A stretch of 64,000 nucleotides of DNA from Bacillota bacterium (lineage in GTDB: Bacteria > Bacillota > Clostridia > Lachnospirales > CAG-274). A model generated the notes under the pieces. The model did no database searches, was not told the origin of the DNA, and was given only the letters and a program-made list of their open reading frames with translations. Below, piece by piece: positions 10,865-19,905 of the stretch. The DNA is taken from positions 1-64,000 of the forward strand of contig JAFYGI010000063.1 in NCBI GenBank assembly GCA_017543265.1. The letters are read 5' to 3'. Position 1 is the stretch's first letter. Each line of letters starts with the position of its first letter. The translations under genes were made by a program, and so were the position numbers.

Positions 10865-12046
10865 TCAATCGACGCTTTCGGATGCTTCCTCGGCGGTCTC
10901 TGCGGCAGCCTCCTCAACAGCCTCATCGACTGTTTCCTCTGCCGTATCGGTATTATCGGGAAGCTCCTCGTCGTCGGGCACCGCAAGCGCCTCCTCTTCT
11001 TCCAGAAGCTTCGCCTGTGTCTGCGACTTGATATCCACCTTCCAGCCCGTAAGCTTTGCGGCAAGACGAACATTCTGTCCCTCCTTGCCTATGGCAAGCG
11101 AAAGCTGATTGTCGGGCACTACCACCCTTGCGGAATGCTCCTCCTCGTTGATTATATCAACGGAAATTACCTCTGCGGGGTTAAGCGCCGATGCAATAAA
11201 CTTTTTGGGATCCTCGTTCCAGGGAACGATATCTATTTTTTCGCCCTTAAGCTCGTTTACGACCGCATTTACTCTTGCGCCGTTTTTACCGACACAGGCA
11301 CCTACGGGATCCACCGACTCGTTTTGTGAGTAAACGGCCATTTTGGAGCGTGAGCCCGCCTCTCTTGCGATGCTCTTTATCTCGACCGTGCCGTCCTTTA
11401 CCTCGGGCATCTCCAGCTCGAACAGACGCTTTACAAGCTCATAATGTGTGCGTGATACCGTTATCTGCGGACCCTTTGTTGTCTGACGTACCTCCATGAT
11501 ATATACCTTTATCCTGTCGTCAAAGTTGTAGGTCTCGCCGGGTATCTGCTCGTTGAGCGGAAGCACCGCCTCATACTTGCCAAGCGCAACTATAACATTT
11601 TTTCTTTCGGTGCGCTGTACTATGGCCGTATCTATCTCGCGTTCCTTTTGTATAAATTCGTTGTATATCTTTTCTCTTTCCGCCTCGCGTATCTTTTGCA
11701 CAACGACCTGCTTTGCGGTCTGTGCCGATATCCTGCCGAAGTTTTTGGGAGTGATCTCAAAGTCGATAAAATCGCCTATCTCGTAAGCGGGGTTTATAAG
11801 CTTTGCATCCTCCAGCGCGATCTCAAGGAAACCGTCGTATTCATCCTCTACGACCTCCTTGCGTGCAAATACCTTTATCTCGCCGGTCTCTCTGTTGATA
11901 TCGACATGGATATTGTCCGAAGTACCGTAATTTTTCTTGCAGGCAAAAACGAGTGATGCCTCTATCGCCTCGAAAATCACTTCCTTGTCGATGCCTTTTT
12001 CCTTTTCGATAAGATCAAGAGCCTTGATCAGTTCTCGGCTGTCCAT
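10865..12046 (-). CDS. nusA: Transcription termination/antitermination factor NusA
   Basis: A 393-residue NusA that binds RNA polymerase and nascent RNA to modulate pausing and termination. Order of domains: N-terminal RNAP-binding domain (1-125), S1 domain (about 130-200), KH1 and KH2 (about 200-345; GACVGKNGARVNAVVNEL and IGKEGQNVRLAAKLTGW). It ends in an acidic Glu/Ala-rich tail and has no C-terminal acidic repeats of the E. coli type, as usual in Firmicutes. GGAGG precedes the ATG. Confidence 0.96.
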   Translation of the reverse strand: MDSRELIKALDLIEKEKGIDKEVIFEAIEASLVFACKKNYGTSDNIHVDINRETGEIKVFARKEVVEDEYDGFLEIALEDAKLINPAYEIGDFIDFEITPKNFGRISAQTAKQVVVQKIREAEREKIYNEFIQKEREIDTAIVQRTERKNVIVALGKYEAVLPLNEQIPGETYNFDDRIKVYIMEVRQTTKGPQITVSRTHYELVKRLFELEMPEVKDGTVEIKSIAREAGSRSKMAVYSQNESVDPVGACVGKNGARVNAVVNELKGEKIDIVPWNEDPKKFIASALNPAEVISVDIINEEEHSARVVVPDNQLSLAIGKEGQNVRLAAKLTGWKVDIKSQTQAKLLEEEEALAVPDDEELPDNTDTAEETVDEAVEEAAAETAEEASESVD

Positions 12047-12070
12047 TTTAGTTTTTATCCTCCTTTAAAA

Positions 12071-12529
12071 TCAAAATCTTACGGCAAGTCTGGTGGAAGC
12101 AACGTCCTTTTTGTCAAAGGACATTTCCCCGTCCACCGTGTTGATGACCACTTTACCGTCGGCAAGGGCAACAAGTGCGCCTTCAAACTGCTTTACGCCG
12201 TCCACGGGCTTAAACAGCTTTACCTCGACATCCCTGCCTTTGTACTTAATATACTCGTGATCTCTTTTGAGTATTCTGTCTATACCGGGGGAGCTTACCT
12301 CCAGTATATAAGGCTTATCCGTAATATCCTCGGGCAGCTTTTCATCCAGCGCCCTGCTGACAAGCTCGCATTCGTCTATGGAAACGCCGCCCTCCTTGTC
12401 GATATACAGCCTTAAAAAGAGACCTGCGCCCTCCTTTACGAACTCACAGTCCACAAATTCCAGACCGTTTTGCTGAAGGATAGGCATTGACAGCTTTTCT
12501 GTCAGCGCGACTATCTCCTTTGCCTGCAT
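12071..12529 (-). CDS. rimP: Ribosome maturation factor RimP
   Basis: A 152-residue RimP needed for 30S assembly. The signature region VDCEFVKEGAGLFLRLYIDKEGGVSIDECE (split here as VDCEFVKEGAG and LRLYIDKEGGVSIDECE) and ILEVSSPGIDRIL are present, followed by a C-terminal SH3-like fold. It is the first gene of the translation/transcription operon, with an AAAGGATG ribosome site and a promoter about 120 bases upstream. Confidence 0.95.
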   Translation of the reverse strand: MQAKEIVALTEKLSMPILQQNGLEFVDCEFVKEGAGLFLRLYIDKEGGVSIDECELVSRALDEKLPEDITDKPYILEVSSPGIDRILKRDHEYIKYKGRDVEVKLFKPVDGVKQFEGALVALADGKVVINTVDGEMSFDKKDVASTRLAVRF

Positions 12530-12682: not shown

Positions 12683-12833
12683 GTGTTTTGTTGTATTTTT
12701 TTCCTTTTATATGGCGCCGTGCAATATGGCGGGTATTTACGGCTGAATAATTTTGCATTATTGCCTTGCCAAGCCGAAAAAACGGGTGTAAAATAATAAT
12801 ATAAAAATTTTTTTAAATTTTTTGAAAATTTTT

Positions 12834-12848
12834 CCGACACTTTGTCGG
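12834..12848 (+). promoter_or_regulatory. Palindrome in the ECF sigma promoter region
   Basis: CCGAC (12834-12838), five bases, GTCGG (12844-12848), about 37 bases before the sigma ATG, followed by TTTCGATTG and TATTATAAG. No standard TTGACA at the right distance is seen, so this may be the -35 zone of an autoregulated ECF promoter or an operator. Confidence 0.4.
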
Positions 12849-12884
12849 TTTCGATTGTATTATAAGTGAAAGGAGGGCAAAAAG

Positions 12885-13373
12885 ATGAAAAAGCCTATGA
12901 CGGAAGAAAGAATAACGCAGATATATGAACGGCACAAGCTGACGGTTTACCGTGTATGCTTTACATATATGAAAAACGCATCCGACACCGAGGATGCCGT
13001 TTCCGACACATTTATACAGATGATAAAGGCAAATCCCGATTTTCAGAGCGAGGAACACGAAAAGGCATGGCTGATACGCACGGCATCAAATATATGCAAA
13101 AACGTGCTGAGAAGCTGGTGGCGAAAGCGCACGAGCCTGGACGAGGTACAGGAGACCGAGGCCCCGCCCGCACCGACAAACGACGTTTTAACTGCCGTAA
13201 GGGATCTGCCCGACAAGCTTAAAAATGTGGTCTATATGTATTACTACGAGGGTTATTCCTCCGTCGAGATAGCGAAGGCCCTCTTCAGACCGCAGTCCAC
13301 AATAAGGAATTATCTGCATGATGCCAGAAAGATATTAAAAGAAAAACTTGGAGGTGATTTTAATGAAGAATAA
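12885..13373 (+). CDS. ECF-type RNA polymerase sigma factor
   Basis: A 162-residue sigma-70 family factor with only regions 2 and 4. Region 2 (about 10-75) reads YERHKLTVYRVCFTYMKN, DTEDAVSDTFIQMIK and AWLIRTASNICKN. Region 4 (about 105-157) has LPDKLKNVVYMYYYEGYSSVEIA and the recognition helix QSTIRNYLHDARKIL. GGAGGG precedes the ATG. It heads a rightward operon and overlaps the next gene, a small membrane protein that may be its anti-sigma factor. Its likely targets are its own promoter and the lipid genes downstream. Confidence 0.92.
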   Translation: MKKPMTEERITQIYERHKLTVYRVCFTYMKNASDTEDAVSDTFIQMIKANPDFQSEEHEKAWLIRTASNICKNVLRSWWRKRTSLDEVQETEAPPAPTNDVLTAVRDLPDKLKNVVYMYYYEGYSSVEIAKALFRPQSTIRNYLHDARKILKEKLGGDFNEE

Positions 13374-13596
13374 CCTTATCACAGAGGCATATGACCTTGT
13401 AAGACCCTCATCCGATGCCGACGAAAGGATGCTTGCCGAGATACTCAGCTTCAGCCGCGATTATTTAAAAAGGAAAAACCGCACGGCATCTGCCGTAAAA
13501 ATGTTTGCATCCGTTGCAGCCTGCTTTTTGTTTGTGTTTGCGGCTGTAAGATTTTTCGGCATAGACATTGCATCCCTGCAAAACAAGATAAACTAA
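13363..13596 (+). CDS. Small single-pass membrane protein, candidate anti-sigma factor
   Basis: A 77-residue protein starting at the ATG inside the sigma factor's last codons, preceded by GGAGGTGATTTTA. Residues 1-45 are a charged, helical cytoplasmic part (AYDLVRPSSDADERMLAEIL). A membrane helix follows at about 48-67 (FASVAACFLFVFAAVRFF), and only about 10 residues lie beyond it. Overlap with the sigma gene and topology suggest an anti-sigma factor, but it lacks a ZAS zinc motif and has almost no sensor domain, so this is inference. Confidence 0.65.
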   Translation: MKNNLITEAYDLVRPSSDADERMLAEILSFSRDYLKRKNRTASAVKMFASVAACFLFVFAAVRFFGIDIASLQNKIN

Positions 13597-13609
13597 AGAG
13601 GTGACAGAC

Positions 13610-13969
13610 ATGAAAAACGCGACCTTCGGCGCAAGCTTTAAAACCGCATTCAAGGGCATATTGTATGCCTTTGCGCATGAAAAAAATTTCAGATACTACT
13701 TTTACAACTTTTCTGCGGCACTTTTGATAAACCTTTTGATACGGGTGCCGATATACTGCCATCTTTATTATATGCTCACGGTCGCGGGTGTCTGCTCTGC
13801 GGAGTGCATGAACACGGCCATGGAGCATATGGCTGATTTTGTATGCCCCGAATTCAACAAAATAATAGGCGCACTCAAGGACATGGCGGCGGCAGCCGTT
13901 TTATGGTGGGGTCTCGCCTTTTACATCGGTGAAGGAGCTATGGTGCTGAAATGGATATTCTGCTTGTAA
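13610..13969 (+). CDS. DgkA-family lipid kinase (diacylglycerol/undecaprenol kinase)
   Basis: A 119-residue three-helix membrane kinase of the DgkA/undecaprenol kinase family. It has FKTAFKGILYAFAHEKNFR at the N-terminus, the family core AECMNTAMEHMAD with catalytic and metal-binding glutamates, and the terminal GALKDMAAAAVL segment. It would phosphorylate a lipid alcohol with ATP at the membrane. In Gram-positives the usual substrate is undecaprenol; the neighbours (CarS, UbiA) suggest another prenyl or ether lipid. ATG at 13610 has a GAGGTG site; an in-frame GTG at 13601 lies inside that site. It overlaps the next gene by 19 bases. Confidence 0.85.
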   Translation: MKNATFGASFKTAFKGILYAFAHEKNFRYYFYNFSAALLINLLIRVPIYCHLYYMLTVAGVCSAECMNTAMEHMADFVCPEFNKIIGALKDMAAAAVLWWGLAFYIGEGAMVLKWIFCL

Positions 13970-14505
13970 CGATAATGCCCGTCATACTCGGCGGCATATT
14001 CAATATGCTTTTTTGCAAAACAAACTTTTACCGTGCGCACAACGCCCCCATCGACGGCGGCAGGACTTTAGGCGACGGCAAAAGGATATTCGGCGAAAAC
14101 AAGACCTTTGCGGGCTTTGCGGGCATGATAGTCTTTTGCATGATATTTCAGGTCTTAACGGGACTTGTATGCAGCGTATCCTCACTTTCAAGCGAGCTTT
14201 ACACGCACCATGCAAACACGCTTATATTCAACCTGTACACGGGCTTTTTGCTCGGCTTTGCCTATATGATATGCGAGCTTCCAAACAGCTATGTAAAGCG
14301 CAGGCTCGATATAAGCCCCGGCAAAACACGCTCCCCGCTGTCTTTTGTTATCGACCAGATAGACTCCGTAATAGGCGTTGCCTTTGTTATATGCCTGTTT
14401 TCGGGTCTTTGGCAGCACTATTTTATGTATATCGTGCTTGGCGGGGCAATACACATAGCCGTAAATTTTGTACTGTATCGGCTTAAAATAAGGCGGGATC
14501 CGTAA
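13951..14505 (+). CDS. CarS-like CDP-lipid synthase (DUF46/CDP-archaeol synthase family)
   Basis: A 184-residue membrane protein with at least four hydrophobic segments. It has the DUF46/CarS signature LGDGKRIFGENKTFAGF at about residues 32-48, then PNSYVKRRLDISPGKTR and IDQIDSVIG. CarS moves CMP from CTP to the phosphate of a dialkyl glycerol lipid; CdsA is its bacterial cousin, but the GENKT motif and short length fit CarS. The bacterial substrate is unknown. The neighbouring lipid kinase could make the lipid phosphate it needs and UbiA could build the prenyl lipid. AAGGAG lies 13 bases upstream of the ATG. Confidence 0.8.
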   Translation: MDILLVTIMPVILGGIFNMLFCKTNFYRAHNAPIDGGRTLGDGKRIFGENKTFAGFAGMIVFCMIFQVLTGLVCSVSSLSSELYTHHANTLIFNLYTGFLLGFAYMICELPNSYVKRRLDISPGKTRSPLSFVIDQIDSVIGVAFVICLFSGLWQHYFMYIVLGGAIHIAVNFVLYRLKIRRDP

Positions 14506-14543
14506 TACCCGTTTACACAGACAGTTAAAATGAGGTGATAAAA

Positions 14544-15452
14544 ATGACGGCTTCTATAAAAAGACTTAATATATATTTTAAAGAAATGTACCCCATAATA
14601 CCGAGAATTGTTCTGGGCGGGCTTTTGTTTTTTGAGATATACTTTATCGTGCTTTTAAACCACGGTGTAACAAGCTTTGACATAGGCGCGGGCGAATGTG
14701 TGGGCGCATTTACGGTGTTCAGCTTTTTATGCTGGCTGCGCATTGCCGATGACTTTAAGGATTACGAGCTGGACTGCCGCCTGTTTGCACACCGCCCGCT
14801 CCCGTCGGGCAGAACGACAAAAACGGATCTGGCTGTTTTTGTAAGCCTGCTTATTGCGCTTACATTGGCACTTAATTTTGTTTTTATGAATAATTTTATT
14901 TTCTGCATAATTTTGTATACCTACGGCAGTCTTATGGCGATATGGTTCTTCCAGAAGCACAAAATACAAAAATCCCTGCCATTGGCGCTGCTTACGCACA
15001 ACCCCGTGCAGATAATAATGAATATATACATAATAAGCTATGTCGTTATAAAATACGGCATACGCCCCTTTGACCTGACCAACTGCCTTGCGGTAATGAC
15101 ACTTTACTTTCCCGCCCTTATATGGGAGGTATCGCGCAAGATACGCGCACCAAAGGACGAGACAGAATATGTCACCTACTCCAAGCTTTTCGGCTACAAA
15201 AAAAGCGTGGATTTTGTCTTTATAATGACATGGGCGGATATTATAACCAATTTTATACTGGTGTGGAATTTGAATAAGCTTTCCGTAATAGCGCTTTTGA
15301 TAAATGTGCTGTGGATGAGCGCAAAGTTTATTGAATTCAAGAAAGATCCTACCGTTTACAAGCTGGTCGATAAGGTGGAAAAATACACCTACATACAGGA
15401 AAGCCTGATGATACTGACGGTTGCAACATATTTACTGGGGTGGACGATATAA
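14544..15452 (+). CDS. UbiA-family prenyltransferase
   Basis: A 302-residue integral membrane protein with about eight to nine hydrophobic helices. The first Asp-rich motif is clear (RIADDFKDYELDCRLFAHRP, about residues 69-88, the NDxxDxxxD position). The second is the divergent KIRAPKDETEYVTYSKLFG near residue 218. UbiA enzymes join a polyprenyl diphosphate to an aromatic or glycerol-based acceptor. The neighbouring CarS homologue points to a prenylglycerol-like acceptor (as in archaeal DGGGP synthase), but this is inference. The start ATG has GAGGTG seven bases before it. Confidence 0.85.
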   Translation: MTASIKRLNIYFKEMYPIIPRIVLGGLLFFEIYFIVLLNHGVTSFDIGAGECVGAFTVFSFLCWLRIADDFKDYELDCRLFAHRPLPSGRTTKTDLAVFVSLLIALTLALNFVFMNNFIFCIILYTYGSLMAIWFFQKHKIQKSLPLALLTHNPVQIIMNIYIISYVVIKYGIRPFDLTNCLAVMTLYFPALIWEVSRKIRAPKDETEYVTYSKLFGYKKSVDFVFIMTWADIITNFILVWNLNKLSVIALLINVLWMSAKFIEFKKDPTVYKLVDKVEKYTYIQESLMILTVATYLLGWTI

Positions 15453-15465
15453 TGAGGTGATACGC

Positions 15466-17598
15466 ATGAAAGCCGACAACCTTAAAATCTTATATAAAAA
15501 CGGTTTTAACGTACCGCCGTTTATCACGGTGACGGACACAAAAAACATCGACCTTTCGTTCAGCCGTGCGGAGCTTTTTGCGGTGCGTTCCTCCTTTGGC
15601 GGCGAGGACGGGGAAAAACACTCGTTTGCGGGACAGTACAAAACGCTTTTAAATGTCAAAAGAGCGGATGTGCCCGCCGCCGTTTCAAAGGTATTCAAAA
15701 GCCTTGACAGCGCCGCGGTCTATGCCTCGGCAAAGGGCATAAAAAACGAAAACGGCTGTGTTATAATACAGGAAATGATAGATGCGTCGCTGTCGGGTGT
15801 GGTATTTACCGCAGACCCGCGTGGCGTGCTTAATGAGGCGGTCGTGACCGTCGGCCGCGGCACGGGCGACAATGTGGTAAACGACAGCGGTGAAACGCAG
15901 ACCTATTTTTTTAACCGCAGCGACAAGCTGTGGTACAGCGGCGGACAAGGCGATTTGGCAAGCGGCGATACTCTGACTGCGCTTTTGCAGACAGCCGACC
16001 GCATACAGGCATTGTTCGGCACCTATATCGACATGGAATTTTGCATAAGGGACGATATCGTCTATATTTTGCAGGCACGTCCCGTTACATCCATACACCC
16101 GAAAAGGATAATAATGCTTGACAGCAGCAATATATCGGAAAGCTATCCGGGGATCACCCTCCCGCTTACCCAAAGCTTTGTAAACGAGGTGTATTACCGC
16201 ATTTTTGAGGGCTGTCTTAAAAGATTGTCAAACGACAAAAAGCTGGTCAAAAAAATGCGGCCGTTTTTAAAAAACATGACCGCCTGTGCAAACGGGCGTG
16301 AATACTATGTTATCTCAAATTGGTACGCCTTTTTGTCGCTGCTGCCGTTTTCAAAAAAGATAACGGGTATATGGCAGGAAATGCTCGGCGTGGAGGAAAA
16401 CGACTTTTACGCGCCGAAGATAAAAACAAATGTCTTTCAGCGGGCAAAAATACTTTTTTCGTTTATATATTATCTGTGCACCACACCAAAGCACATGAAA
16501 AAGCTTAACGGCGATTTTGCAAAAAACTACCCTTTCTACCGCCTTAAAGCCGCACAGGCAGGCGATATATATGAGCTTTTGGCGGTATATGAGGATATAA
16601 AGACGGAGATACTGTCCGTATGGGACATTACGCTTGTAAATGATATGTATGCCTTTATTTTTACGCATCTTTCGGGCAGGGGCAAAAAGCTTGATGACAT
16701 AACGCCCGAGAGTATGCAGCCCGTGTTCGCTCTTGACGGCGTAATAAAGGCGTATAAGGCATACGGGGCAAAAAGCGGCGAATATACCGCACTTAAAAAC
16801 AGATATATCGACCTTTACGGCGACAGGATATCGGGCGAGCTGAAGCTGGAAACACCCACATACCGCACCGACCCCGCTCTGCTTGACGTATATGCCGCGA
16901 CCCACGAGCCAAGCGGCATAAAACAGCCGCGCAAAAAAATATTTATTGCACCGTTTACAAGGCGTGCCGTTAAAGGCATAGCAAACCGCGAGACCTCGCG
17001 CCTTAACCGCAGCCGTATTTTCGGCCTTATACGCACGATAATGCTTGATATAGGTGAAATACTGGTAAAAAACAGACTTTTGGACGAAAAAGAGGATGTG
17101 TTTTATCTTTATGCAAGGGAGCTTGAAAATGCGCTGCACCTTGACCCAAAAGCGCTGAAAGCGCTTATTGCGGACAGAAAGCGGCTGTATGCGGGGCTTG
17201 GATCGGTGCCCTATTTCAGGCGGCTGATATTTGCGGACAAAATTGTTGAAAAGACGGGCATTTACACCGTTTCGGCATCGAACAGCCGTGTTTTGTACGG
17301 TGTGGGAACATCGGGTGGAAAGGTCACGGGCGAGGTGCTTGTGGTCAGCGACCCGACCAATGTTAATGCCGAGGGGAAAATAATAGTCACACAATCCACC
17401 GACCCGGGATGGATATTTCTTATACAGGGCTGCAGGGGCATGATAGCCGAAAGAGGCTCTCTTTTAAGCCATACGGCCATAATCTCGCGCGAGCTTAAAA
17501 AGCCCGCGGTCGTAAACGTAAAAAACGCTTCGCGCATACTTAAAACGGGGATGAACGTGGAGCTGGATGCAGACAGAGGGAGGATAAGGATATTATGA
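15466..17598 (+). CDS. PEP-synthase / rifampin-phosphotransferase-like dikinase
   Basis: A 710-residue three-domain enzyme. Residues 1-215 are an ATP-grasp-like PPDK_N domain (VRSSFGGEDGEKHSFAGQ, GVVFTADPRG, ILQARPVTS). A helical middle domain (about 225-600) opens with SESYPGITLPLTQSFVNEV, a pattern typical of rifampin phosphotransferase relatives. The C-terminal swivelling domain carries the phosphohistidine loop RGSLLSHTAIISREL (His about 669). ATP would phosphorylate this His, which passes phosphate to an acceptor. The canonical PEP-synthase pyruvate-binding TIM barrel is not present, so the acceptor is more likely a small molecule or lipid than pyruvate. It overlaps the next gene by 4 bases. 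Confidence 0.85.
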   Translation: MKADNLKILYKNGFNVPPFITVTDTKNIDLSFSRAELFAVRSSFGGEDGEKHSFAGQYKTLLNVKRADVPAAVSKVFKSLDSAAVYASAKGIKNENGCVIIQEMIDASLSGVVFTADPRGVLNEAVVTVGRGTGDNVVNDSGETQTYFFNRSDKLWYSGGQGDLASGDTLTALLQTADRIQALFGTYIDMEFCIRDDIVYILQARPVTSIHPKRIIMLDSSNISESYPGITLPLTQSFVNEVYYRIFEGCLKRLSNDKKLVKKMRPFLKNMTACANGREYYVISNWYAFLSLLPFSKKITGIWQEMLGVEENDFYAPKIKTNVFQRAKILFSFIYYLCTTPKHMKKLNGDFAKNYPFYRLKAAQAGDIYELLAVYEDIKTEILSVWDITLVNDMYAFIFTHLSGRGKKLDDITPESMQPVFALDGVIKAYKAYGAKSGEYTALKNRYIDLYGDRISGELKLETPTYRTDPALLDVYAATHEPSGIKQPRKKIFIAPFTRRAVKGIANRETSRLNRSRIFGLIRTIMLDIGEILVKNRLLDEKEDVFYLYARELENALHLDPKALKALIADRKRLYAGLGSVPYFRRLIFADKIVEKTGIYTVSASNSRVLYGVGTSGGKVTGEVLVVSDPTNVNAEGKIIVTQSTDPGWIFLIQGCRGMIAERGSLLSHTAIISRELKKPAVVNVKNASRILKTGMNVELDADRGRIRIL

Positions 17599-18617
17599 GA
17601 TACAGATGTATATGTTCAAAACCGAATACCGCACTGCTGAAAAAATTTCTTGCTCTTCCCGCGGAAATATACGGCAGCGCACCAAACAGGGAAACGGAAG
17701 AAAAGATATTAAACGGCACACATATTTTAAGCGGGTACTTCGACATAATCCCCTTTGCCGTGCTGGACGAAAACAGGCGGCTTGTAAACCGCTGCATACT
17801 TGCGCACTACAAGGGCGAGGATAAGGCGTACATCGGCTTTTTTGAGGCGCTTGACAATGTTCCCGCGTGCAGGATGCTTTTTGCGTCGGTGGAAAGCCGT
17901 GCCAAAAGTCTTGGCATAAAAAGGCTTATAGGGCCGTACAACTGCTCGCTTTGGCTCGGCAGCCGCTTAAAGCTGGATAAATTTGAAGATACCTATACGG
18001 GCGAACCCTTCAACCCGCACTACTACCCTAAATTATGGCGTGAAAGCGGTTTTGAGATATTCGAGCAGTATCACTCCAATATCTACAAAATACCCGATAC
18101 ACACAACGAAAAATGCCGCAGAAGACTTGAATTTTTCAAGACCTGCGGCTATGAATTTACACATATGACAAGCAGGGACTACTGCCGTCAGCTCGGTGAG
18201 ATATACGAGCTTTTAAGCCGTGTATATTCCGGCTTTCCCGAATACAGGGATATAACAAAGGCGGAATTTATCGCGCTGTACACGCCGCTAAAAAAAATGC
18301 TTAATCTTAAGCGCGACCTGCTTGTTTACAAAGACGGGAAGCTTGCGGCGTTTATGATAGCCTTTCCCGATTATTCAAGGGCAAAAAATATTTTTGACCG
18401 CGCACGGATAAAGCACGACCCACAAAGGCTGGTATTTATGTACCTTGGTGCAGATCCCTCACATATGGGGCTCGGCTCGGCACTTGCGGAGCTTATGCGT
18501 GAGGCACAGGAGGGAAAGCCCTCTGTGGGTGCGCTTATCCACGGCCAAAAGCCGCGCTATTACAGCGAGCTTATAGTGGACAGATATAATTATGCACTCA
18601 TGGCAAAAAATATATAA
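17595..18617 (+). CDS. GNAT-fold N-acyltransferase-like protein
   Basis: A 340-residue protein. The first half has YIGFFEALDN, a hydrophobic helix-strand and GPYNCSLW, followed by GEPFNPHYYPKLWRESGFE. This resembles large GNAT-like proteins of the YghO type. A second acyltransferase-like half (about 180-340) includes LVYKDGKLAAFMIAFPDY and the acyl-CoA loop-like MGLGSALAELM. The substrate is unknown; as the last gene of the lipid island it may acylate the head group made by its neighbours. Its start is ATGA-coupled to the preceding gene. It ends 6 bases from the converging vWA gene, with no obvious terminator between. Confidence 0.7.
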   Translation: MRYRCICSKPNTALLKKFLALPAEIYGSAPNRETEEKILNGTHILSGYFDIIPFAVLDENRRLVNRCILAHYKGEDKAYIGFFEALDNVPACRMLFASVESRAKSLGIKRLIGPYNCSLWLGSRLKLDKFEDTYTGEPFNPHYYPKLWRESGFEIFEQYHSNIYKIPDTHNEKCRRRLEFFKTCGYEFTHMTSRDYCRQLGEIYELLSRVYSGFPEYRDITKAEFIALYTPLKKMLNLKRDLLVYKDGKLAAFMIAFPDYSRAKNIFDRARIKHDPQRLVFMYLGADPSHMGLGSALAELMREAQEGKPSVGALIHGQKPRYYSELIVDRYNYALMAKNI

Positions 18618-18623
18618 GCCGAC

Positions 18624-19262
18624 CTATTCCGTGCAGTAGCTTTCTATCTCTTCTTTCCAGTCCTCGGGTACCGCCATGCAGTCTTTTTGCGTAAAAGTGC
18701 ATACCGCCTTTGCAAGCGCCCTGTAGTTAAGTGCCGTGCCCTTGCGGTCACACTTATACTTAACGGCCTTATCGGCGCTTATGCCCATTCTGCCCGCCTC
18801 TGCCGCGGCATCTATATTGGCACCCAGAAAGAGAAACTCCCAGTTGTGTTTCTCTTTCTTTTTTTCGATAAGCTTTTTTACCTTTTTATAGTCATATTTT
18901 ATGCTGGCATTTTCCATGCCGTCCGTTGTTATAACGACAAGTGTTTTATCGGGACGGATGCCGTTTTTGTGGCGCTTGCCAACACTCTCCACCGTACTGC
19001 CCACAGCGTCCAGAAGCGCGGTGCAGCCCCTGACAAAATATTGCTTTTCGGTCATTTCATCGACCTTGTCAAGCGGTACGTTGTCGTACAATGTTTCGAC
19101 CCTGTCGTCAAACAGCACGGTCGTTACAAAAATGCTTTGCGTTTTATCCTGCTTTTTAAGCATGGAATTGTAGCCGCCTATGGTATCGCTTTCAAGCCCG
19201 CCCATAGAGCCGCTTCTGTCAAGGATAAAGATGATCTCCGCAGTGTTTTTTGTTTCTTTCAT
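18624..19262 (-). CDS. von Willebrand factor A domain protein (TerY/YegL-like)
   Basis: A 212-residue single-domain vWA protein. The metal-ion-dependent adhesion site is intact: DRSGSMGG near residue 15, a Thr in GCTALLDAVG (about 95) and the Asp of VITTDGMEN (about 128). It has no signal peptide or membrane helix, so it is cytosolic, like TerY proteins linked to tellurium-type stress systems. The gene upstream encodes an HTH-like accessory protein. GGAG precedes the ATG. Confidence 0.85.
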   Translation of the reverse strand: MKETKNTAEIIFILDRSGSMGGLESDTIGGYNSMLKKQDKTQSIFVTTVLFDDRVETLYDNVPLDKVDEMTEKQYFVRGCTALLDAVGSTVESVGKRHKNGIRPDKTLVVITTDGMENASIKYDYKKVKKLIEKKKEKHNWEFLFLGANIDAAAEAGRMGISADKAVKYKCDRKGTALNYRALAKAVCTFTQKDCMAVPEDWKEEIESYCTE

Positions 19263-19365
19263 GATAATTATCTCCTTTCAGGGTAGTTTTCCTTTGTTTT
19301 GAGATAATTATATATTAAAGAATATGGCTTGTGGTCGCTTTTGAAGCGACATTTTCGGGGATATT

Positions 19366-19905
19366 TTATACCAGCGTCTGAACGCCGTGCTCGTAAAGGG
19401 CGGTGTTTATCGTATACATATCATAAACGCCGTTTTCGATAAAAAAGCGGATTATAAGGTCAAAAACGCTGCTCGGAGAGAAGGCATAGCCCGCCCGTGC
19501 AAGCATATCCCGTGCCTCGTCAAGGTTCAATTCAAGTGCGATGATAAGCGCAAAGGCTGTCTTTTTGGACGGTTTATAGCTGCTGTCGCACTGCATTTTG
19601 GAAAACAGCTTTCTGTCTATGCACGCACGCTTGTAGACCTCGGCATTGGACAGACCCTTTTCGCCGATAAGCTCAAAAAGCCGTTCTGTGAAGGTCTCTT
19701 CAAGCTGATCTATAACATCGCTTAAATGCCTGCCGCTTGCCTGCATGGGCTCCGCCGCATTGTCACAGACCTCCTCCGACACACAAGCGGACTCCTTTTG
19801 GCGGAAATTTCGCCCCAATGCCGCAGAAAATACTGCCATAGGCTTTGGCTCGGGTATATAGTGCTGTTTTATGTACAGGTCAAGTTTTAAAAATAGTTCT
19901 TTCAT
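19366..19905 (-). CDS. Accessory protein with a C-terminal HTH-like domain, function unknown
   Basis: A 179-residue protein. The N-terminal 25 residues (LFLKLDLYIKQHYIPEPKP) and a variable linker lead to a conserved C-terminal domain of about 110 residues. This begins ETFTERLFELIGEKGLSNAEVYKRACIDRK and ends ARAGYAFSPSSVFDLIIRFF (named here in parts). From memory, the same domain occurs next to vWA or macro-domain proteins in Clostridia and looks like a degenerate Xre-type helix-turn-helix. No catalytic motif is seen. It is followed by the vWA gene 103 bases downstream, with a GTCGCTT/AAGCGAC hairpin between. Confidence 0.6.
   Translation of the reverse strand: MKELFLKLDLYIKQHYIPEPKPMAVFSAALGRNFRQKESACVSEEVCDNAAEPMQASGRHLSDVIDQLEETFTERLFELIGEKGLSNAEVYKRACIDRKLFSKMQCDSSYKPSKKTAFALIIALELNLDEARDMLARAGYAFSPSSVFDLIIRFFIENGVYDMYTINTALYEHGVQTLV

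Follow-up and report, generated by a model that had tools for sequence, protein, structure and literature searches.

The polar lipids of archaea are made by digeranylgeranylglyceryl phosphate (DGGGP) synthase, CarS, archaetidylserine synthase and archaetidylserine decarboxylase. Archaeal CarS takes phosphatidic acid far less readily than the phosphates of unsaturated isoprenoid ether lipids, for which it has a strong preference, and DGGGP synthase has two aspartate-rich (Asp) motifs (PMC9385802). Bacterial phosphatidylethanolamine (PE) is produced by CdsA, PssA and Psd, betaine lipids by BtaA (DUF3419), and the rifampin phosphotransferase/phosphoenolpyruvate (PEP) synthase family is built from an ATP-grasp domain, a central domain and a C-terminal phosphohistidine swivel. 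Here we describe an operon with likenesses to these systems at positions 12885-18617 of a 64,000-nucleotide stretch, hereafter the window, from a Bacillota bacterium of the Lachnospirales (assembly GCA_017543265.1, contig JAFYGI010000063.1, positions 1 to 64,000). Together with its relatives in other Clostridia, the operon probably encodes a dedicated and conserved membrane phospholipid pathway running through a lipid activated with cytidine diphosphate (CDP).

The operon and its relatives use the same superfamilies in the same logical order as the archaeal pathway (UbiA-fold, CarS, PssA-type, Psd-type) but add a kinase before CarS, either DgkA or a second phosphotransferase (DIK-beta), as well as a swivel phosphotransferase adjacent to UbiA (DIK-alpha, the operon dikinase), an acyl ligase and a GNAT acyltransferase, and they differ in an altered second Asp motif in UbiA and in that no geranylgeranylglyceryl phosphate (GGGP) synthase was found in five carriers. 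The likeness to PE synthesis lies in PssA and Psd with intact motifs for serine and ethanolamine head groups, whereas the operon has CarS beside a separate CdsA and links it to UbiA, dikinase and GNAT. One form of the operon (class C below) resembles betaine lipid synthesis in carrying a DUF3419 gene beside UbiA, dikinase, GNAT and ligase; it differs in that this gene shares its operon with UbiA and dikinase and in the lack of DgkA, CarS, PssA and Psd. DIK-alpha has the three-part architecture of the rifampin phosphotransferase/PEP synthase family but scores below the model cut-offs, lacks the PEP/pyruvate barrel and sits in a lipid-synthesis setting. The preliminary description of this DNA had known of no named pathway with this gene set, and we likewise found no description of the operon pathway in the open-licence literature on CarS, UbiA, DUF3419, Lachnospiraceae and lipids; passages of the Lipocone paper (PMC12419801) concern other systems.

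In the window, seven rightward open reading frames, overlapping or nearly touching, encode in series an extracytoplasmic function (ECF) sigma factor, a small membrane protein, DgkA, CarS, a UbiA-fold transferase, DIK-alpha and a tandem GNAT. The DgkA and CarS frames share 19 bases and the dikinase and GNAT frames 4 bases. This agreed with the packed rightward unit inside a leftward block that the preliminary description had reported, and the features named there (GENKT in CarS, DDxxDxxxD in UbiA, a DgkA core and a phosphohistidine swivel) were all present, the UbiA motif reading DDFKDYELD and the swivel SHTA.

An alignment of UbiA served to search the species genomes of GTDB for relatives, and the loci retained were the best 80 of a longer list (identity at least 66%); many are metagenome-assembled genomes, in which absences are weaker evidence. 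The block recurred in at least 80 clostridial loci, commonly as DgkA-CarS-PssA-Psd-UbiA-dikinase-(acyl ligase)-GNAT, and the retained relatives came from Lachnospiraceae, Ruminococcus, other Oscillospiraceae and further Clostridia. Because the same genes stand in the same order and on the same strand in dozens of other loci, their grouping in the window is beyond chance, and the gene order is kept well beyond a single strain. Among 51 loci with enough flanking sequence, 22 read DgkA-CarS-PssA-Psd-UbiA-dikinase-GNAT, 13 had the same order without PssA-Psd, and 9 consisted of UbiA-dikinase-ligase-GNAT; UbiA and dikinase were separated by at most 150 bases in 73 of 75 loci. The seven window genes, proposed earlier as one unit, thus behave as a functional unit but an incomplete one, since most relatives add PssA and Psd and often an AMP-dependent acyl ligase. 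In the window's genus the operon was present in three of six sampled genomes, and all seven genes were found in two other members, G001 and G004 (the window genome being G000). When 391 genomes were sampled evenly across the class, seven contained the close UbiA family and three a distant one, which indicates that the operon is widespread but patchy.

Four forms were distinguished. Class A, the form of the window, is DgkA-CarS-[PssA-Psd]-UbiA-dikinase-[acyl ligase]-GNAT. Class B (L078, L088, L090, L109-L114) combines CarS-DIK-beta with UbiA-dikinase-GNAT, usually with PssA-Psd and sometimes with the ligase, in an operon without DgkA. Class C (L011, L106-L108) contains UbiA, dikinase, DUF3419, a polytopic membrane protein, GNAT and ligase, and class D, the core only, is UbiA-dikinase-ligase-GNAT. 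In Lachnoanaerobaculum loci (L042 10975-12072 and others) the order was rotated to dikinase-GNAT-DgkA-CarS-PssA-Psd-UbiA, followed by a gene resembling UDP-galactopyranose mutase.

CarS (13951-14505, +) was assigned to the CDP-archaeol-synthase family of CTP:lipid-phosphate cytidylyltransferases by PF01864 (E 1.3e-19, 71.3 bits, cut-off 22) and by a profile alignment with A. pernix CarS (5guf) over 16-191. Its GxxKTxxG, SxxKRR and DQxDS motifs were conserved in 66, 66 and 67 of 67 proteins. PF01864 alone over-counts CarS, because low-scoring CdsA proteins match it too. The window protein fell below the cut-off of the CdsA model PF01148 (16.1 bits vs 24), so that the match to CdsA by which the preliminary description would have been refuted did not occur; it also fell below the equivalog model for archaeal CDP-archaeol synthase (NF003114, 82.5 bits vs 148). 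A separate true CdsA is encoded at G000:C3, and CdsA was present in all five genomes checked, which argues that CarS is not the general CDP-diacylglycerol enzyme. CarS was found in none of 11 core-only genomes searched genome-wide.

DgkA (13610-13969, +, ATG at 13610) matched PF01219 (DAGK_prokar; E 7.5e-22, 77.5 bits, cut-off 22.3), and E27, E68, N71, E75, K93 and D94 were kept in 62-64 of 64 relatives. The operon copy was the sole DgkA in eight class A genomes, including that of the window, and no DgkA was found in four core-only genomes searched; five of nine class B genomes lacked DgkA and the others had a higher-scoring one elsewhere. Taken together, these patterns suggest that the operon DgkA is dedicated to the pathway. 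In one set of loci CarS was accompanied by DgkA in 63 and by DIK-beta in 3, never by both and never by neither, and a class-wide search added six CarS/DIK-beta loci. Such a distribution would be expected were DIK-beta to take over the role of DgkA. DIK-beta retained its ATP-site motif in nine of nine proteins, and the search pattern detected a CHAA/CHTA swivel histidine in eight of them. In the dikinase tree it formed its own clade, and the UbiA-adjacent dikinase formed one group across classes A-C, although long-branch attraction between class C and DIK-beta is possible, leaving their relative placement unsure. Since a swivel phosphotransferase takes the place of DgkA beside CarS in class B, at least this paralogue probably phosphorylates the lipid, and not a small precursor as the preliminary description had proposed for the dikinase.

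DIK-alpha itself (15466-17598, +, ATG at 15466; listed start TTG at 15421) is a swivel-domain ATP-dependent phosphotransferase that matched only PPDK_N (4.3e-30) and PEP-utilizers (2.2e-20) in Pfam, with swivel histidine and ATP-site motifs conserved among relatives. Against NF004882 (PRK06241.2-3, cut-off 850) it scored 607 bits and a class B relative 930. It fell far below the models for PEP synthase (TIGR01418, 126.5 vs 739.75 bits) and rifampin phosphotransferase (NF041857, 161.6 vs 999); relatives of the dikinase include the prodigiosin ligase PigC as well as rifampin phosphotransferase. In the draft record of Roseburia inulinivorans DSM 16841 (L028 10920-13038) the dikinase lies in three reading frames, from sequencing error or decay.

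PssA and Psd form part of the operon at the majority of class A and class B loci but are missing from the window copy. The only PssA-Psd pair of the window genome is at G000:C49, and its proteins are 83% and 72% identical to a stand-alone pair in G001, which is likewise the only one there. The sole pair of G004 belongs to the operon; the Psd of this pair resembles operon Psds of other families (50% identity with L028) more than that of G000 (37%). Stand-alone and operon pairs thus substitute for one another within one genus, in keeping with a common head-group step. Among the other class A genomes whose operon has no Psd, 12 of 13 had one elsewhere. The D-x-x-DG-x-x-AR motif was intact in 40 of 40 PssA proteins (the full CDP-alcohol motif in 32 of 40) and GGS[TS] in 43 of 44 Psd proteins.

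The UbiA-fold membrane transferase (14544-15452, +, ATG at 14544) scored below the cut-off of PF01040 (3.7e-5, 23.6 bits vs 34.2; a class C relative reached 36.4) and just missed that of NF010118, the PRK13592 prenyltransferase, over its full length (409 bits vs 443, E 1.2e-122). The best Foldseek matches of its predicted model were 7bpu and 6m31, and DGGGP synthase 6m31 was the closest structure (Z 18.4, rmsd 3.6, 269 aligned), soluble prenyl synthases giving a Z of about 12. No MenA or CyoE model of NCBIfam was matched at E up to 1, which places the protein outside both families, as the preliminary description would have it. The first Asp-rich motif was conserved in 82 of 83 proteins, and in all 83 once D[DE] is accepted. 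Elsewhere in the window genome a second UbiA-family gene (G000:C29; L105 4085-4954) looks by eye like a phosphoribosyl-transferase type and not a quinone enzyme; the operon UbiA profile aligned with this paralogue only at the first motif region.

The tandem GNAT (17595-18617, +) had no Pfam match and was assigned from its two-domain AlphaFold model (pLDDT 93.9), for which Foldseek ranked tandem GNATs best (2wpw, 5kf1 and 7q3a; the clavulanate-cluster tandem GNAT, a glucosamine N-acetyltransferase and mycothiol synthase) and FemX and MprF lower. PF00583 was matched in 10 of 37 relatives. The GNAT may acylate a head group, as proposed earlier. The AMP-dependent acyl ligase lies next to it in many relatives. 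In class C, DUF3419 (BtaA-like) matched PF11899 at 210 and 225 bits (cut-off 28.2), and its presence where other forms have DgkA-CarS-PssA-Psd suggests that a lipid alcohol may receive a different head group; class C may thus be a clostridial pathway for betaine-type lipids. The operons at L107 6020-14670 and L011 862-8688 comprise UbiA, swivel phosphotransferase, DUF3419, polytopic membrane protein, GNAT and acyl ligase; the membrane protein, encoded between DUF3419 and GNAT, appeared dolichol-kinase-like by eye but had no Pfam match, and this assignment was dropped.

The genes present, their arrangement and conservation, the intact catalytic motifs and the exchange of DgkA for a second phosphotransferase gene are observed; function, including the sequence of steps and a CDP-lipid intermediate, is deduced from protein families, motifs, gene neighbourhoods and patterns of exclusivity. 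The core, comprising the UbiA-fold transferase, the swivel phosphotransferase and the tandem GNAT, joined in many relatives by the acyl ligase, would make or alter a lipid alcohol that may be prenylated. This alcohol would be phosphorylated by DgkA, CarS would convert the lipid phosphate to a CDP-lipid with CTP, and PssA would add serine, which Psd would turn into ethanolamine. In the window's genus an ECF sigma factor and a small membrane protein stand at the front of the unit. Several observations weigh against this reading. The second Asp motif of UbiA (D-x3-D before G-x2-T) was found in none of 83 proteins, 80 of which have RK[IL][RK]AP-x-[DE]-[ENQ] in that region, so that a prenyl diphosphate donor is not assured. 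Core-only genomes without CarS and DgkA exist, and the core product therefore need not always be a phospholipid. Finally, DgkA could use diacylglycerol and CarS phosphatidic acid.

In another account the operon supplies ordinary PE: DgkA would recycle diacylglycerol, on which such enzymes can act, CarS would serve next to CdsA as a phosphatidate cytidylyltransferase, common PE would come from PssA and Psd, and UbiA, dikinase and GNAT would modify PE or serve the envelope separately. That the operon Psd is the sole one in G004, that Psd is single in most carriers and that stand-alone and operon pairs replace each other within a genus all fit this account, but the separate CdsA, the substrate preference of archaeal CarS and the tie of CarS to UbiA-dikinase, with its genome-wide absence from core-only carriers, speak against it, and we regard it as unlikely. 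Less probable again is that the core constitutes a small natural-product or meroterpenoid lipid pathway (a ligase-activated acid, prenylation, phosphorylation and acylation) whose product is merely anchored or exported by the phospholipid module. Core-only operons, the ligase adjoining GNAT, the dikinase relatives rifampin phosphotransferase and PigC, and the patchy distribution are consistent with this, whereas the commonest arrangements include DgkA-CarS and no transporter or other biosynthetic gene recurs beside the operon.

The preliminary description had also proposed a prenylated glycerol or alcohol lipid, following archaeal ether-lipid logic. Its assignment to lipid metabolism very likely holds, as does the CarS and UbiA-fold unit, and a prenylated alcohol is a plausible hydrophobic part of the product. 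Its archaeal ether-lipid logic is weak: a PcrB-family GGGP synthase was found in none of five carrier genomes searched and the second UbiA motif is gone, and for these two reasons the pathway is not classed here with that of archaeal ether lipids, a product of the classical archaeal kind being unlikely. An archaeal-type ether lipid (prenyl glycerol-1-phosphate) of bacterial make would agree with the fold of UbiA, with CarS family membership and with PssA being about equally near the pssA and archaetidylserine synthase models, but against the model for DGGGP synthase (NF009522, cut-off 353) UbiA scored no more than 16 bits, and given this and the two absences we consider such a lipid highly improbable. 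The dedicated phospholipid pathway through a CDP-lipid thus remains our preferred reading.

The sigma factor (SIG, 12885-13373, +), the first gene of the unit, is of the ECF type (Sigma70_r2 7e-14, Sigma70_r4_2 2.5e-10 in Pfam), and its 3' end overlaps the start of the next gene (13363 vs 13373). This gene (13363-13596, +, ATG) encodes a small protein with one likely membrane span and no family match in Pfam and NCBIfam searches; from its position directly after SIG it is a possible anti-sigma factor. SIG orthologues head the operon in G004 (82% identity) and G001 (76%), each directly followed by a partner 56-64% identical to the small protein. A promoter-like stretch, CCGACA...GATTGTATTATAAGTGAAA (12820-12884, +), was conserved in an upstream alignment of the three genus members, with about 19 bases around the TATTATAA element identical in all three. 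ECF control, as proposed earlier, is therefore plausible within the window's genus, where SIG heads the unit, but it is not a feature of the pathway, as SIG is no operon member in other genera. To the left of the operon lie leftward nusA- and rimP-like genes (10865-12529), and to the right a leftward VWA-type gene (18624-19262). The G004 operon likewise adjoins rimP/nusA and that of G001 sits elsewhere. Between the operon and a dUTPase-like gene the window has the VWA-type gene and a second small gene (18624-19905), at whose place G004 has a permease-like gene. The GC content of the island (46.3%, flanks 48-50%) was not decisive for foreign origin, and plasmid origin was rejected, the UbiA protein being encoded by no plasmid record.

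New relative to the preliminary description are PssA and Psd as operon members in most relatives, the DIK-beta and DUF3419 forms, the operon DgkA as the sole one in eight carriers, the lack of CarS and DgkA in core-only carriers, and the replacement of the second UbiA Asp motif throughout. Tentatively, and with less assurance than for the pathway itself, we suggest an undescribed phospholipid class across gut Clostridia (Lachnospiraceae, Ruminococcaceae and others), with a hydrophobic part that a non-canonical UbiA-family transferase makes and that DgkA or a phosphohistidine-swivel lipid kinase phosphorylates, and with interchangeable ethanolamine or S-adenosylmethionine-derived (BtaA-like) head groups. 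If this is true, many common gut and oral Clostridia, with cultured carriers including Roseburia, Oribacterium and Lachnoanaerobaculum, would have a membrane lipid class unassigned by lipidomics; some members of the PEP-synthase/rifampin-phosphotransferase family, in which the annotation PEP synthase prevails, would be lipid kinases; and CarS, otherwise characteristic of archaeal lipids, would act stably in bacteria, preceded by a kinase.

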